Virus record (IMG/VR): IMGVR_UViG_3300021338_000003
Location: 1-64,000 of that record
Source: a virus
Strand: one strand, 5' to 3'
Length of the DNA stretch: 64,000 bases
Shown here in pieces: positions 16,430 through 62,998 of the stretch; the stretch's first letter is position 1; each line of letters begins with the position of its first letter. The notes beneath the pieces were generated by a model. It worked only from the letters and a program-made list of their open reading frames with translations, did no database searches and was not told the DNA's origin. A program made the translations under genes and the position numbers.

Positions 16430-17092
16430 TTACTCCTCCACGTCCAGCTCGGTAGTCAATGACCCACCGCTCCCCAGACCAGCCCAATCCATACCCAGAA
16501 TGTCCGGGCACTCATGGTCGCAAAGCTCATGAACAAGCTTTGCAAGGTCCTCCAGGGGGCCATGGAAGTTGAACTTGTAGAAGTTTCCCTTGGTACAATC
16601 GGGAGCGACTGCGGAAGCTCCAGGTTCGACCTCAATCTCAAGGGGTTCTTCTCCACCTGGGACACGGAAGGATGCGAAGTACACGTTCCTCCCAGCCTCT
16701 TGGCGGCGAATGTGGCGTCGAGCTTCATCGATGGCCTTCACCACCCCCTCGTCATCGAGGCTGGCCAGGACCCACACCTTGGACCCCATATACATATACT
16801 TCGACGCATCCACAGAAAGGTCGTCGGTGACAATCCACGACTTGGGCGGTTCTGCCTCCTCCAAAGCAGCCCTCTTCATATCCCGGGCACGTTGCACCAG
16901 GGCCTTGATCCTGTCGGAGGACACCCTGTAGAATCCATCACACACCTTCTCGGCGTCGCGCCCGGCCAGGCGATAGAGCCTGGCCAAAGTGGACCCAGGA
17001 AACGTAGCCCTCGGAGCCTCACTATGATTCGAACAATACTCTAGAAAGAAGTCATCAGTCCAGGTACTCATGTCAGTGGAATCGAAATTCAT
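16430..17092 (-). CDS. Hypothetical protein, 220 aa
   Basis: An acidic alpha/beta protein; motifs such as FRVPGGEEPLEIEVEPG and YKFNFHGPLEDLAKLVHEL do not match a family I know. The ATG overlaps the stop of the DUF2786-like gene (ATGA) behind GGGAGGTG, so the two are coupled under the promoter at 17856-17884. Confidence 0.6.
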   Translation of the reverse strand: MNFDSTDMSTWTDDFFLEYCSNHSEAPRATFPGSTLARLYRLAGRDAEKVCDGFYRVSSDRIKALVQRARDMKRAALEEAEPPKSWIVTDDLSVDASKYMYMGSKVWVLASLDDEGVVKAIDEARRHIRRQEAGRNVYFASFRVPGGEEPLEIEVEPGASAVAPDCTKGNFYKFNFHGPLEDLAKLVHELCDHECPDILGMDWAGLGSGGSLTTELDVEE

Positions 17093-17832
17093 CGCACACC
17101 TCCCTCGATTCTCTTCGTTTCCTTGATTTCGTCCTTCTTGGGCCCCTCCACACCCTTGTGGAGCTTGATATCCAGACCGGCCTTGTAGCCATCCCGGTTG
17201 AAGTCACTCTTGGACCCACCCTTGTACTTTCCGATCTTGGGGCAACGAGCCAACATGAACTCGTCGGACTTCTGGGCCCGAGACAGCACCAACGCAGTGC
17301 CCTGGGGGTCCTCGGCCTTGCCGGCGTCACGAATCTCTTGAAGCTTGACCGACAGGCCCCACACCGCAGACTCACGGTAGGACTGACAGTCACCATAGAG
17401 GTTGCGAAGGCCACGAGCAGTCCGCTCCTTCTTCCACTTCTTGAGGGCCTGCTGGATCTGACGTTCGCAGATATCGTAGAGGTAGTGCAGAATTTCAATA
17501 TCGGTCTTGTGACCAAAGAGCCGGGCGACGGCCTTGTTGGAGCCCTTGCCGGGGGTCTTGACCTTCATACGGAGGGCCTTGACGTTGCAGTGGTTGGCCA
17601 GAGCCCACACCAGCTTCATACGCCAAGTGACGCGACCAACATCCAGGCGGTCCTCAACGAGAGGGTCGGCTTCGAGGCTCACATCATTGATCTCCGACAT
17701 GGAGATGGCATGCTCCCGCATCATCTTGGCGGCGAGCTTGGCGGCGAGTTCCCCCTCGGGGGTACCAGCCTGGTCGTCGGCCAGGGCCATCATCTTCTTG
17801 AGCTTCTTCACGATCGGATTGATGTTAGTCAT
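17089..17832 (-). CDS. DUF2786-family protein
   Basis: 247 residues. The N-terminus (VKKLKKMMALADDQAGTPEG; LAAKLAAKMMREHAI, about 6-43) fits the DUF2786 pattern 'I..LL.LA...G...EAE.A...A..LM..HGI'. The second part (WRMKLVWALANHCNV; GHKTDIEILHYLYD) looks like the domain that often follows it. The function is unknown. ATG lies 7 bases after AAGGAGG. The gene has a consensus promoter ending about 18 bases before its start, so its mRNA leader is very short. Confidence 0.75.
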   Translation of the reverse strand: MTNINPIVKKLKKMMALADDQAGTPEGELAAKLAAKMMREHAISMSEINDVSLEADPLVEDRLDVGRVTWRMKLVWALANHCNVKALRMKVKTPGKGSNKAVARLFGHKTDIEILHYLYDICERQIQQALKKWKKERTARGLRNLYGDCQSYRESAVWGLSVKLQEIRDAGKAEDPQGTALVLSRAQKSDEFMLARCPKIGKYKGGSKSDFNRDGYKAGLDIKLHKGVEGPKKDEIKETKRIEGGVR

Positions 17833-17844
17833 CAGGTTGCCTCC

Positions 17845-17873
17845 TTGACACAAGTATTATAACACGGCATGAT
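17845..17873 (+). promoter_or_regulatory. Possible rightward promoter, overlapping the leftward one
   Basis: On the plus strand, TTGACA (17845-17850) is followed after 17 bases by CATGAT (17868-17873), 4 of 6 for a -10. It would serve the holin-like gene at 17910. It overlaps the much stronger leftward promoter face to face, so the two could not be occupied together. Confidence 0.35.
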
Positions 17874-17884
17874 ATACCTGTCAA
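17856..17884 (-). promoter_or_regulatory. Exact-consensus sigma-70 promoter
   Basis: On the minus strand: TTGACA (17884-17879), 17-base spacer, TATAAT (17861-17856), with TG one base before the -10 (extended -10). Both hexamers match the bacterial housekeeping consensus at 6 of 6. It drives the DUF2786-like gene and its downstream neighbours, and is the strongest promoter I found in the window. Confidence 0.9.
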
Positions 17885-17909
17885 GCAGGTCCTTCTGGGA
17901 GGATCCCAA

Positions 17910-18224
17910 ATGGAATTCGATTTGTATAGTGTTCTTGTTGCTGCCCTTACCTGGGTACTCACTCTTGGCGCCGGAAAGGTTATAGACCTTTCCAAGTACC
18001 CTCGTATGCGTCATATCCTACCCCTTGTGGCTATGGTCCTGGCTACTGGTCTTCAGTCTGCATTGGCTGTATGGCAGGGTGCCGATGCTTTCAGCGCCGA
18101 GGTGTTGTTGACGGGTCTATCCACTGGGGCTGTGGCTATCGCGAGTCATAGTCAAGGCCGGGAGATCTTGAAGCTCATCGCCGAGCTTGGGAAGCCTCTT
18201 CCTGAAGAGAATCCGACCGAGTGA
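17910..18224 (+). CDS. Holin-like membrane protein
   Basis: 104 residues behind GGGAGGATCCC. Two or three membrane segments: about 5-22 (YSVLVAALTWVLTLGAG), about 36-54 (ILPLVAMVLATGLQSALAV) and a weaker one at about 65-80 (VLLTGLSTGAVAIASHS). The tail is charged. Size, topology and the 'LTG..TG..A.ASHS' end resemble small phage holins that make membrane holes for lysis. No endolysin is adjacent, so another small membrane protein role cannot be excluded. Confidence 0.45.
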   Translation: MEFDLYSVLVAALTWVLTLGAGKVIDLSKYPRMRHILPLVAMVLATGLQSALAVWQGADAFSAEVLLTGLSTGAVAIASHSQGREILKLIAELGKPLPEENPTE

Positions 18225-18235
18225 TGGTGATTGCG

Positions 18236-18291
18236 ACTTGTGCTTCCTAGGATGCCATGTTAAAATGGTTGTGTACCTAGGAGGCACAAGT
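18236..18291. repeat. 16-bp inverted repeat enclosing a promoter and Shine-Dalgarno site
   Basis: Left arm ACTTGTGCTTCCTAGG (18236-18251) and right arm CCTAGGAGGCACAAGT (18276-18291) pair at 15 of 16 positions; the odd pair would be a G-U in RNA. The left arm includes the -35, the 24-base loop includes the -10, and the right arm includes AGGAGG and the first bases of the GTG start at 18290. Read-through RNA from the holin-like gene should therefore mask translation of 18290, while local transcripts should not. Confidence 0.75.
18238..18266 (+). promoter_or_regulatory. Promoter for the 18290 operon
   Basis: TTGTGC (18238-18243), 17-base spacer, TAAAAT (18261-18266) with an extended -10 (GCCATGT before it). 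The same GYCRTGY context precedes the -10 at 17861, 32373, 41754 and 43863. Predicted transcription begins near 18273, about 17 bases before the GTG. Confidence 0.6.
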
Positions 18292-18598
18292 GAGTGAAGA
18301 CCCCCTCTCCTTCCCCTGGCTGGAGGAGAACATTGGCCGCATCCTCGGTGGTCCCTCTTCAATGCGTGAAGTCAAGGGTCACCCCCTGAACAAGCTGGCA
18401 AAGGCCATCAGGGTCCTCAGCGAGGACCCCGGGACCACCGACTACGACGTGGCTACCGTGCTCTGGGATGTCTACGATGTCGCCCGGAAGTTCGGTCAAC
18501 AGGAGGCCCGCCGGAAGGCCCTCAGCCAGGCGATCACCCAGAACTCAGTGGAGGGTCGACGCCTCCACGATGAATGGTTCAAGGAAGTGACCAAGTGA
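18290..18598 (+). CDS. Hypothetical protein, 102 aa
   Basis: GTG start behind CCTAGGAGG. A helical, charged protein (LNKLAKAIRVLSEDPG; YDVARKFGQQEARRKAL). No family is recognised. It is the first gene of a run to about 21003 joined by 1-4 base overlaps, and its ribosome site sits in the inverted repeat 18236-18291. Confidence 0.6.
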   Translation: MSEDPLSFPWLEENIGRILGGPSSMREVKGHPLNKLAKAIRVLSEDPGTTDYDVATVLWDVYDVARKFGQQEARRKALSQAITQNSVEGRRLHDEWFKEVTK

Positions 18599-32349: not shown

Positions 32350-32378
32350 TTGCGTACCCCTTCAGGCCATGCTACATT
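32350..32378 (+). promoter_or_regulatory. Promoter for a short monocistronic unit
   Basis: TTGCGT (32350-32355), 17-base spacer, TACATT (32373-32378), with an extended -10 (GCCATGC). Transcription would start near 32385. The spacer holds CCTTCAGGCC (32359-32368), which pairs over 10 positions (one G-U) with GGCCTGGAGG (32394-32403), the Shine-Dalgarno region of the 40-codon gene at 32409. Confidence 0.6.
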
Positions 32379-32408
32379 GTATATAGGCACACCGGCCTGG
32401 AGGTTCAA

Positions 32409-37824: not shown

Positions 37825-38649
37825 ATGTTCGGTGGTGATGATTCGTGGGATGAGGACGATTGGGGCGAGTGGAGCGAGGACGGGGATTCGTCCGGGGCTG
37901 CTTCCGATGACAAGCCGGCTGAGGAGGAGGCCCCCAAGCCTGCTGCTGCCAAGCCGGCAGCCAAGAAGAAGCGGCCCGCCAAGGCCAAGGCGGTTGACAA
38001 GCCCGCTGCGGCCAAGAAGAAGCGGCCCGCCAAGGCCAAGGCGGTTGACAAGCCCGCTGCGGCCAAGAAGGCAGCTGCGGCGAAGAAGGCAGCTGCGGCG
38101 AAGAAGCCAGCCGCTGCCAAGAAGCCTGCGGCCAAGAAGGGTCCGCTGGTTCCGCTGACCTTCTTCAAGGCCGGTGACAACCTCGTTCTCCAGAAGAACG
38201 ACCCCCAGACTGGCGAGGCGCAGAACTTCAACAAGGCGCACTTCAAGAAGGGTGCCCTCAAGGGTCTGATGACGTACGACTTCAAGTCGGTGGGCTATAC
38301 TACGCCCTACGCCCAGATCAAGGAGCTTCGGGCCGCCCTGAAGGAAGCTGGCTACAAGCTCGTTCGTGGCAAGGCTCCAGCTGCTGCGAAGCCGGCCGCT
38401 TCCAAGAAGCCGGCCGCTTCCAAGAAGCCGGCCGCTTCCAAGAAGCCCGCGGCTGCGAAGCCGGCTGCAGCCAAGAAGCCGGCCGTCAAGCTGGCCAACC
38501 GGAAGGCGTACAACACCCTCGTGTCCTCCATCCGGGACAGCCTGGTGATGGTCGGTGCTCGCTTCAGCGAGGACGACGCCCGCAACGCCCTGGACTACTT
38601 CCTGTCGCGCCCCGAGGCGTCCGTCAGAGATGCCTGGGACAAGCGGTGA
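37825..38649 (+). CDS. Histone-H1-like Lys/Ala repeat protein
   Basis: 274 residues behind ACAGGAGAGAT. An acidic N-terminus (FGGDDSWDEDDWGEWSEDG) leads to Lys/Ala/Pro repeats (about 37-108), including a 17-residue unit AAKKKRPAKAKAVDKPA twice. A folded region follows (about 109-180, PLTFFKAGDNLVLQKND), then ASKKPA-type repeats (about 185-220) and a final helical domain (about 222-274, YNTLVSSIRDSLVMVGARFS). Tails of this kind occur in linker histones and bacterial H1-like proteins and bind DNA. It probably condenses or coats phage or host DNA. Own promoter and double terminator suggest strong, isolated expression. Confidence 0.65.
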   Translation: MFGGDDSWDEDDWGEWSEDGDSSGAASDDKPAEEEAPKPAAAKPAAKKKRPAKAKAVDKPAAAKKKRPAKAKAVDKPAAAKKAAAAKKAAAAKKPAAAKKPAAKKGPLVPLTFFKAGDNLVLQKNDPQTGEAQNFNKAHFKKGALKGLMTYDFKSVGYTTPYAQIKELRAALKEAGYKLVRGKAPAAAKPAASKKPAASKKPAASKKPAAAKPAAAKKPAVKLANRKAYNTLVSSIRDSLVMVGARFSEDDARNALDYFLSRPEASVRDAWDKR

Positions 38650-38657
38650 GAGCCCTT

Positions 38658-38703
38658 GTTCTCAAACCATTCCATTATCCCCCTGATGGAATGGTTTGAG
38701 AAC
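38658..38703. terminator. 18-bp perfect hairpin after the H1-like gene
   Basis: GTTCTCAAACCATTCCAT pairs perfectly with ATGGAATGGTTTGAGAAC around a 10-base loop. No U-tract on the plus strand. It may act in both directions between convergent transcription units or protect the mRNA end. Confidence 0.6.
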
Positions 38704-38709
38704 ATCAGT

Positions 38710-38747
38710 GATGAACCCCCTACAACTTCCAGAGTAGGGGGTTCATC
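38710..38747. terminator. Second terminator after the H1-like gene
   Basis: Perfect 14-bp stem GATGAACCCCCTAC/GTAGGGGGTTCATC with a 10-base loop, then TGTATT on the plus strand. The convergent minus-strand gene ends at 38790, so it may also stop leftward transcription. Confidence 0.8.
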
Positions 38748-38789: not shown

Positions 38790-39722
38790 CTAGACGTCCC
38801 GACACTTGATTTTGAGTTGAGCCTCCATCCGTATGCTGCCGCCTTTGGACAGACGGATGTTTCGAGACTCCTCCCACGACTTGCGAACGCTCCTAGCCGC
38901 CTCAGACGGGGGCGTATTGCATTCTAGAACCCTTCTCATCTGGGCTACCAGGTCCTCCCAGTCGTCACCCCATGGCTCATCCTCGATACGCTTGACTGGC
39001 GGAGCATCGAGGGTGGTCACCTTTCCATTCCTAGGGAACTTCTTTCCGGTTTCAGTTCGGAACACCATCTCCGATGTACCACGAGGGTGGGTTTGACCTC
39101 TGACCCGTATATCTCTTCCGGCCGCTTTGAACCCAACGCTCCCGGAGAACATGATTTCTGGGCCCTTAGAAAGGTCAAGAGGGTCCTCGTATTGGGTTAG
39201 GAAGCGGCCGTGGGGTCCGTCGAGTATTTCGACGGGGGCGACAGTCCATGAGCCCTCCCCGGGGCCCTCCGAGACCCAGGTCAGGAGCAGGCCCTCGTGC
39301 TCACCATTTCTGACCAGTATTGGAGTGGTTTGGGAATGGGTAGCCAGGGCAAATTCCTGGGCCAGGACCCCACCCACTCTGATGGTCCTGTTTTGGACTT
39401 TCTGTACTTGGTCAGACATATCCTTGAAATGCTCACAGGATATTGACTCGGCACTTCGATGATTGTCCATGCCATCAATAAGGCCCAAGTCCGAGCATGG
39501 TTTGGACTTCCTGTAGCGACTGAACTTTGTCCAAAATTGGCATTCGCCACAAGTGGCATGGGTCAAGGGGGTGTACTTATCACAGAGGTAGTCAGGGGGT
39601 GTTCCGATGACCTTCTTACCATCTATTTTGACCCTTTTGGATACCTTGCACGTACGACCCCGCACCTTGTGTTGCCACAAAAAACAGGTGGCACAACTTG
39701 GGGGTGGTTGACTGTTTGCCAT
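38790..39722 (-). CDS. Protein with two N-terminal four-cysteine clusters
   Basis: 310 residues. Cluster 1 spans SCATCFLW to LCDKY (about 9-47) and cluster 2 spans CGECQFW to CEHF (about 57-98), each C-x2-C-x-[FL]-W...C...C-x2-[FY]. The same pattern is in the RecA-like protein and in the gene at 52198. The middle is beta-rich (GLLLTWVSEGPGEGSWTVAP), the C-terminus helical and basic. Probably metal-binding; function unknown. Three genes run leftward from 41711. Confidence 0.55.
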   Translation of the reverse strand: MANSQPPPSCATCFLWQHKVRGRTCKVSKRVKIDGKKVIGTPPDYLCDKYTPLTHATCGECQFWTKFSRYRKSKPCSDLGLIDGMDNHRSAESISCEHFKDMSDQVQKVQNRTIRVGGVLAQEFALATHSQTTPILVRNGEHEGLLLTWVSEGPGEGSWTVAPVEILDGPHGRFLTQYEDPLDLSKGPEIMFSGSVGFKAAGRDIRVRGQTHPRGTSEMVFRTETGKKFPRNGKVTTLDAPPVKRIEDEPWGDDWEDLVAQMRRVLECNTPPSEAARSVRKSWEESRNIRLSKGGSIRMEAQLKIKCRDV

Positions 39723-41730: not shown

Positions 41731-41759
41731 TTGCCTTTTTACGGCTGCCGTGTTATAAT
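41731..41759 (+). promoter_or_regulatory. Promoter for the 41777 operon
   Basis: TTGCCT (41731-41736), 17-base spacer, TATAAT (41754-41759) with extended TGT (GCCGTGT). TGCCTTTT (41732-41739) can pair with AGGAGGCA (41765-41772), the Shine-Dalgarno region, using two G-U pairs. Transcription would start at about 41766, within the Shine-Dalgarno itself, so the leader is very short or start sites vary. Confidence 0.75.
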
Positions 41760-41776
41760 GGGTTAGGAGGCATCAA

Positions 41777-43839: not shown

Positions 43840-43868
43840 TTGCCTTCCTTTGTATGTCGTGCTAAAAT
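43840..43868 (+). promoter_or_regulatory. Promoter for the 43891 operon
   Basis: TTGCCT (43840-43845), 17-base spacer, TAAAAT (43863-43868), extended TGC (GTCGTGC). Leader about 15-20 bases before the ATG at 43891. Same design as the promoter at 41731. Confidence 0.7.
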
Positions 43869-61378: not shown

Positions 61379-62998
61379 ATGGCCGGTATCAGGTATCGCG
61401 CGTGTGAGTTCGATGCAGACCTCGGTGCTGCGGTTCAGGACTACCAGTCGTATGTCATTTCGAGGCACGAGACAGTCCGGTCAAACATTTCGACCGTTCT
61501 CAACACCGTGGCCAATAACTTCCGGGATCTCGATGATCTGGAGGATGTACTTCTAGCCGCTCTAGGTAACTTTGGCATCACATCCAGGGCTGCCCTGCGT
61601 CAACGTTATGGCATGTATGAACTCCCCCAAACCCAAGAGGAGAGGGAACTCTGGTTGCTGGAACAGGTGAATACGGTTGTGGTGGATGGCCAATATTTGA
61701 TGAAGGACCCGGGAGGCATTGACCTCACGTCCTATACCACGTTGCATTCCTACGTAGGCGACGCCATCTCTTCCCTGATTTCCTCCGGTCGCCCTTTTCA
61801 CATCCATGCCAAGTACCAGGGCGTTACGTATACCGACGTCAACCTCAACAAGGTGGCTGAAGACCTCGGCATATCGGTATCTGAGTTCGATTCTATCCTG
61901 TTTGCCTGGAATGGGAACGTGAACTCGGGTCTTCGTAATCTCATCATTGAAAAAGGCATTCCGGGTGCTGCCCTATATGGAGTCATGTCTGGCCAAAGTC
62001 GGAATGGGGTTGAGGTGGTGGTTATTCCTCGTGTTGACCTTATTCAGAAGCTCCGGTCCATGGGCCTGTCGGATTCTGGTGTATACAAGCTCTTCAGCCG
62101 TGGTGTGTCCAAGGTGACCATCGATTCTCAGGAAATCCGAGAGGGGGACAGTGAGGACACATTGCCTGGGGCCTTCCTGTCCACTCCCTATCCAGGAGAG
62201 ACAGCCCGAGCCCTGACCGCCGAGATTCGGATGTATCCTGGTGTTGGGGGCCGGCTCAATTCGGGGGTAGAGGTGTATTTGGCCCCTATCTTGGTGTTGG
62301 CTCGGGCCATTGATTTGAGTCAGACCTTTGCCAGTCAGGATGTTATGGCCCGCACTTCGACCAAGATAGGGGCCGACGCCCAAGTGGGTCAGGCAGCACT
62401 AGCGGCCCAGGAAGTTCAATTCACTCAGATGACTCAGACATTTGGGGCTTTTCAGCAGAGCGCTGACTTCTTCATCGAGCAGGCGGCCCTAGCTGAAGAG
62501 ACAGCCGCGTTTTTTGGTGTCGGTGCTGATTGTGGCCGCAATTCGGGTACTGGCGGGTTTGGTGACTTTGATTTTTGGGGTACGGTCTTGTCCGACCTCC
62601 AAAGTCAAAGCATCGACAACCTCGTGAAGGAATGGAAAGATGTGGCTACCAACATCAACTTCGGCGGTGACCTCATAAACGACCTCTCTTTCAACATGGT
62701 GTCTTTGTCCTGTGAGGCTGTCTCGCTGAATTGCCAGGGACAGAATAACCTCGAAGACCTTGGCGCCGAAGGCGGACCATACGATACCGATGGCGGCACC
62801 AACATGGCTCTCGAAGATGTGTCGGACGTGCTCAAGAGCACAGAGCGCATGCTGGAGGCGTTCCAGCAAATAGGGCCCAACCTCTCGTTGGCTTCCATTG
62901 GCTTGGGTCAGCTAGAGAGCTTGACTACCGAGCCATGTGAGAGTCCCGCCAACATCTCCTTCCTTCAGTCCATCCGAGGCAACGGGACTCTGGGATGA
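61379..62998 (+). CDS. Virion structural protein, 539 aa, baseplate block
   Basis: Helical N-terminus (AVQDYQSYVISRHETVRSNI), an alpha/beta middle (LIQKLRSMGLSDSGVYKLFS) and a helical, Gln/Ala-rich region (QAALAAQEVQFTQMTQTF) with Cys residues at the end. No catalytic motif. Last gene of the 54816-62998 run. Confidence 0.5.
   Translation: MAGIRYRACEFDADLGAAVQDYQSYVISRHETVRSNISTVLNTVANNFRDLDDLEDVLLAALGNFGITSRAALRQRYGMYELPQTQEERELWLLEQVNTVVVDGQYLMKDPGGIDLTSYTTLHSYVGDAISSLISSGRPFHIHAKYQGVTYTDVNLNKVAEDLGISVSEFDSILFAWNGNVNSGLRNLIIEKGIPGAALYGVMSGQSRNGVEVVVIPRVDLIQKLRSMGLSDSGVYKLFSRGVSKVTIDSQEIREGDSEDTLPGAFLSTPYPGETARALTAEIRMYPGVGGRLNSGVEVYLAPILVLARAIDLSQTFASQDVMARTSTKIGADAQVGQAALAAQEVQFTQMTQTFGAFQQSADFFIEQAALAEETAAFFGVGADCGRNSGTGGFGDFDFWGTVLSDLQSQSIDNLVKEWKDVATNINFGGDLINDLSFNMVSLSCEAVSLNCQGQNNLEDLGAEGGPYDTDGGTNMALEDVSDVLKSTERMLEAFQQIGPNLSLASIGLGQLESLTTEPCESPANISFLQSIRGNGTLG

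Follow-up and report, generated by a model that had tools for sequence, protein, structure and literature searches.

Here we describe a family of phage promoters of the host sigma-70 type that are likely to double as translation insulators, each gene being translated from its own promoter only; the promoters themselves are probably early. In the mechanism that we propose, an anti-Shine-Dalgarno (anti-SD) arm would sit in the -35/spacer DNA of the promoter, and the short leader would form the complementary arm, within which the SD lies. Transcripts initiated at the promoter would begin downstream of the left arm and leave the SD free, and RNA entering from an upstream promoter would contain both arms, fold and hide the SD, such that a gene whose own promoter is off would stay silent even with transcription still running through it. 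With the transcription start deduced from the -10, the left arm precedes the start and the right arm covers the SD, and pairing is consequently possible only in RNA entering from upstream. Transcription is presumed to start ∼7 nt past the -10, and the model further presumes that such read-through RNA is made, that ribosomes are blocked by the hairpin inside the cell and that the promoters belong to the early class.

The window, a stretch of 64,000 nucleotides with a GC content of 54%, represents bases 1-64000 of a 250,817-bp IMG/VR virus record. The remaining sequence of the record was also analysed, and the promoter-family sites come from the whole record. The record is a jumbo myophage-like genome with six tRNAs, in which we recognised genes for a DnaB-like helicase, a topoisomerase II large subunit, a baseplate wedge, a terminase large subunit (TerL) and a gyrase-A-like protein. 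Queries of IMG/VR with the DUF7168 protein, TerL and topoisomerase identified no close relatives of the phage; TerL is 25-27% identical to that of Erwinia/Dickeya jumbo phages, and DnaB ∼30% identical to that of Burkholderia, Xanthomonas and Vibrio phages. Elsewhere in the window, two perfect hairpins (19 and 14 bp) at 38657-38747, between the converging ORFs 37825-38649 (+) and 38790-39722 (-), are probably a two-way terminator, and a 30-nt imperfect inverted repeat with its copies 34 nt apart lies within a 539-codon ORF at 62281-62374.

Family sites were called across the whole record by a weight matrix trained on strong matches, which yielded a single family of 30 copies with the pattern TTGcmn-N9-TGCCATGTTAWAAT, where N9 denotes nine free bases. 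The family has the features of host sigma-70 extended -10 promoters (TTGnnn, a 17-bp spacer and TGnTATAAT), and its pattern occurs 27 times with up to three mismatches in this phage versus 0-3 times in six other phages. At 28 of the 30 promoters, an SD and a start codon follow 16-30 nt past the -10, and the mRNA leader is very short if transcription starts ∼7 nt after the -10. The two promoters that lack an SD or start codon lie at 159599, just upstream of tRNA-Lys (159703) and tRNA-Arg, and at 150266, which may drive a non-coding RNA. Opposite-strand family promoters overlap or abut at 245436 (-)/245446 (+) and at 139638 (-)/139643 (+). At 18 of the 30 promoters (binomial p 8e-10), the 50 nt preceding the -35 include a GATC-containing element, possibly an activator site or methylation mark, with CGATCC/GGATCG ∼22-fold denser upstream of family promoters than genome-wide; examples are found at 17915-17925 in the window and at 245446 and 247170 in the record.

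The site at 17840-17889, on the minus strand, illustrates the arrangement. The preliminary description had identified a consensus promoter here with a -35 region complementary to the ribosome site, and both statements are borne out: TTGACA-17-TATAAT matches the consensus at 12 of 12 positions and carries an extended -10 TG (-10 at 17856-17861), and the left arm CCTGCTTGACA (17889-17879), which contains the -35 TTGACA (17884-17879), forms 10 of 11 pairs with the right arm TGTCAAGGAGG (17850-17840), which contains the SD AGGAGG (17845-17840). The layout reads CCTGC-TTGACA-17-TATAAT-ACTTG-TGTCAAGGAGG-CAACCTG-ATG, with the start ATG at 17832, and the gene driven by this promoter encodes a 247-codon DUF2786/DUF7168 protein (phrog_421; 17089-17832, minus strand). 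The weak facing promoter described earlier is also present on the plus strand, inside the same site and upstream of the ORF at 17910 (TTGACA-17-CATGAT, 17845-17873, 10 of 12 matches); it is a by-product of the palindrome, confined to this single site and outside the general design. Several strong sites, this one and 155964 among them, have a divergent gene upstream, and read-through RNA is therefore not obvious there, which is the weak point of the model at the present site.

The complementarity between arms is specific to each site. Exchanging left arms between sites provides a control that keeps both motif and composition, and across the 28 promoters with an SD the gap-free Watson-Crick helices scored 15.0 for matched arms versus 12.8±0.5 for swapped arms, a difference attained in 0 of 50,000 permutations. 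The same comparison with G.U pairs counted was equalled in 46 of 50,000 permutations, and by duplex energy in 3 of 20,000; a reversed-leader control on the 28 promoters was null. Structure prediction placed the occlusion of the SD in the read-through RNA only. The mean predicted cost of opening the SD over the 28 promoters was 7.44 kcal/mol in that RNA and 3.23 kcal/mol in RNA initiated at the promoter, and the former fell to 4.46 kcal/mol with dinucleotide-shuffled upstream sequence and to 5.31 kcal/mol with a swapped arm (0/20,000 each). The excess was 2.99±0.76 at family promoters versus 0.13±0.16 at 75 gene starts elsewhere in this genome, and a sample of 22 promoters with this motif from other viral contigs gave no excess.

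The pairing had previously been interpreted as a design present throughout the genome and not a single chance repeat, a claim that was to fall if shuffled promoters paired equally often. It survived this comparison, as none of 20,000 shuffled draws reached the observed mean, yet it applies to a subset of one promoter family (about 11-14 of 28 sites) and not to the rest. Strong sites, defined by an SD-opening cost of at least 8 kcal/mol, number 11 of 28; between roughly a third and a half of family promoters carry anti-SD arms, and the remaining promoters work without them. The costliest openings are those at 94979, 18238, 247170, 100042, 88526, 32350 and 17884, with the cost at 100042 due mostly to its own leader, and 10 of the 12 best Watson-Crick helices cover at least four SD bases. 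An upstream ORF is co-directional at 18238, 247170, 88526 and 94979; among family sites as a whole, hairpin strength does not track with the presence of a co-directional neighbour.

Three further places in the window, at 18236, 32359 and 41732 (all plus strand), had been listed as recurrences of the same geometry, of which the first two hold up and the third pairs at chance level. The 18236 site is far stronger than the one at 17840, with 16 pairs including one G.U and an RNA fold z of -8.0. Its left arm ACTTGTGCTTCCTAGG (18236-18251) lies over the -35 TTGTGC and spacer, its -10 is TAAAAT (18261-18266), and its right arm CCTAGGAGGCACAAGT (18276-18291) spans the SD AGGAGG and reaches two bases into the GTG start (18290) of a 102-aa gene without a family match (18290-18598); the -35 begins 14 nt past the stop of the co-directional ORF 17910-18224. 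The 32359 site has its left arm CCTTCAGGCC (32359-32368) in the spacer between -35 TTGCGT (32350) and -10 TACATT (32373), and its right arm GGCCTGGAGG (32394-32403) contains the SD before ATG 32409; opening this SD costs 10.9 versus 5.2 kcal/mol with shuffled upstream sequence, a value to be read with the weak -10 and the short ORF in mind. The arms at 41732, TGCCTTTTTAC (41732-41742) and GTTAGGAGGCA over the SD (41762-41772), are present as described (8 Watson-Crick and 2 G.U pairs), but the opening cost of 4.4 versus 4.8 kcal/mol when shuffled, and a fold z of +0.3, provide no support. The fifth family promoter in the window (43840-43868, plus strand) is armless, with an SD-opening cost of 0.8 kcal/mol.

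Since the TerL and DnaB relatives of this phage are too distant, covariation was analysed in T4-like phages. The early sigma-70 promoters of T4 have a mean SD-opening cost of 5.5 kcal/mol in read-through RNA, compared with 3.5 when shuffled, 3.7 when swapped and 1.6 in their own RNA, an excess of 1.9±0.8 with 8 strong sites out of 24-26; these include, by position, the promoters directly before regB, motB.2, ndd.4, nrdC.8, alt.-3 and 30.8. Five strong sites were found in CC31, including those directly before alc and denV, with perfect 9-11 bp arms that differ in sequence between genes (helix permutation 4/20,000). In the genome-wide test RB69 and VR7 each have one strong site, and RB49, under a loose promoter model, has no site with excess; JS98 has no strong site, where the loose promoter model probably understates it, and most sites of JS98, RB69 and VR7 show no excess. 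T4 late promoters, included as a positive control, did not reach significance when taken together, probably since the hairpin is present at only a few of them. A second class of early promoter in T4, RB69 and JS98, unlike the anti-SD class, has a palindromic spacer with AAGGA in mid-spacer (CCACAAGGATGTGG, ACCAAGGATGGT), as at T4 50972 and 2457 on the minus strand.

Compensatory change between the arms is evident in these phages. For 25 distinct promoters whose spacer contains CTCC, drawn from T4-like phages and IMG/VR contigs, we compared in fixed register the six bases next to CTCC with those before GGAG, and found 113 of 150 possible Watson-Crick pairs versus 58.6±6.3 for swapped arms (maximum 86 in 50,000, i.e. 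0/50,000), with JS98 contributing many of the pairs. The rows of this set are related to one another and the 113 pairs are not independent events; the swap control and the occurrence of up to four pair types per position nevertheless make descent alone an unlikely cause. Both arms have been altered together before denV (CTCCTGTAG/CTACAGGAG in T4 versus CTCCGTTTGT/ACAAACGGAG in CC31) and at regB (CTCCTCTAGTTG/CAACTAGAGGAG in the RB69 type versus CTCCTGTAAGT/ACTTACAGGAG in L262).

Among other genomes, BcepSauron showed no effect, and in PaBG, Alexandra and PhiXhv-12 such promoters are too scarce. Scanning viral contigs for CTCCTTG..TATAAT..CAAGGAG returned 70 stretches versus 43 for a TAATAT control; TAATAT is itself usable as a -10 and hence a poor control, and the scan serves only as a hint. 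With the same imperfect control in mind, 51 of the 75 matches precede an ORF with its start codon, and the 33 distinct places with promoter, SD and ORF have a -35 at the right distance in 26 cases. Pairing at the scan sites continues inward (95/50,000), and other promoters on the same contigs have a small excess (18/5,000).

Counting G.U pairs adds no signal in this phage or in the T4-like set, and for this reason wobble use does not discriminate between pairing at the RNA and at the DNA level; the case for RNA rests on the diversity of the arms and on T4-like covariation. A phage repressor or activator could bind an inverted repeat flanking the -10 as a DNA operator, which would suit the sequences TTGC..CTCCTTGT / ACAAGGAGGCAA shared by the arms at 94979, 247170 and 246000, the palindromic 17884 site with TTGACA on both strands, and the separate GATC-containing element at 18 of 30 promoters. 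We regard this as unlikely: the arms of the strong sites at 18238, 88526, 155964, 83253 and 17884 are wholly different with complementarity kept, and T4-like phages change both arms together. Strong sites use unrelated arms (CTTGTGCTTCCTAGG/CCTAGGAGGCACAAG; ATTGACACCTT/GAGGTGTCAAT; GCCTCCTTGTG/CACAAGGAGGC; CCTGCTTGACA/TGTCAAGGAGG), and given such differences a single protein would not bind all of them. About equally improbable is that the hairpin acts on the read-through RNA in some other way, as an RNase processing site, a pause site or a protective 5′ end. A stem of 9-16 bp over a ∼20-nt loop could be a processing signal, and some hairpins hold GGAG in the stem, a sequence that T4 RegB cuts in SDs (PMC3014915); a processing site, however, would not need the helix to be centred on the SD, where it is found, rather than elsewhere in the leader.

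Chance pairing of pyrimidine-rich spacers opposite purine-rich SDs is a very improbable source of the signal. Shuffled and swapped arms already cost 4.5-5.3 kcal/mol, meaning that part of the cost is generic, and site 41731 fits such an origin, but the observed values exceed even the swap control that keeps composition (0/20,000; 0/50,000), other gene starts are null, and the T4-like arms covary. The swap control refutes this explanation for the whole set, a verdict that does not extend to single weak sites. Least credible of all is that the left arm serves a divergent gene on the opposite strand as its SD. CTCC on one strand is indeed GGAG on the other, and a GTG-initiated reverse frame of 84 codons follows at 94979; at the 11 remaining sites where the excess is 3 kcal/mol or more, no correspondingly placed reverse ORF is longer than 33 codons, and six of these sites have none whatever. 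We therefore reject this reading, which could account for at most one site.

The principle behind our preferred interpretation, promoters that insulate translation, is known for single genes. In T4 e, soc, 49 and I-TevI, the late promoter lies within the DNA for the 5′ strand of an SD-hiding hairpin, and promoter-initiated RNA escapes, as reviewed in PMC3014915; as predicted for the present family, the SD is hidden in longer transcripts and the promoter's own RNA is free. Those cases involve late promoters (TATAAATA) and a few single late genes that are kept off early, whereas here the promoters are of the host sigma-70 type, the left arm is in the -35/spacer, a family of 28 is concerned, and genes that are probably early would be kept off in read-through RNA. 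For B. subtilis sigG, a 20+ bp hairpin has been proposed, as cited in PMC5942855, to block translation of spoIIG read-through RNA, and transcripts of the sigG promoter are unable to form it; this differs in being one cellular gene with a sporulation sigma factor promoter. Cluster K mycobacteriophages carry ESAS/SAS inverted repeats immediately ahead of the SD and start codon in many genes of one phage (PMC3203893), but the ESAS arms share one consensus, departures from which do not support RNA pairing according to the authors (PMC3203893). The arms here, in contrast, differ between sites, share no single conserved sequence of the ESAS kind with SAS GGGATAGGAGCCC, and vary freely with pairing kept.

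The closest likeness is with early promoters of T4, CC31, RB69 and JS98 (Straboviridae), which have similar geometry, a similar effect size at single sites, and covarying arms. Their consensus is a different one (TTTACA..TGnTACTAT) and they belong to another phage lineage, and the likeness looks convergent. The relevant passages of T4 reviews do not mention arms at early promoters, and in the openly accessible literature we found no description of the device for early T4-like promoters or as a feature of a promoter family, although older T4 promoter papers could hold one.

If the interpretation is correct, a dozen bases within a promoter would be a cheap device for making a gene's translation depend on a single start site, tandem genes would be insulated from each other, and a design rule for synthetic operons would follow. 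It also bears on an open point in T4 biology, how the phage ends the synthesis of early proteins although transcription still passes through the early genes. We suggest tentatively, and with less confidence than for the phage described here, that promoter-embedded anti-SD arms may have evolved repeatedly as a general device in large lytic phages: each armed early gene would be translatable from its own early promoter alone, and early shut-off would silence the armed, often host-takeover, genes at once despite middle or late read-through.
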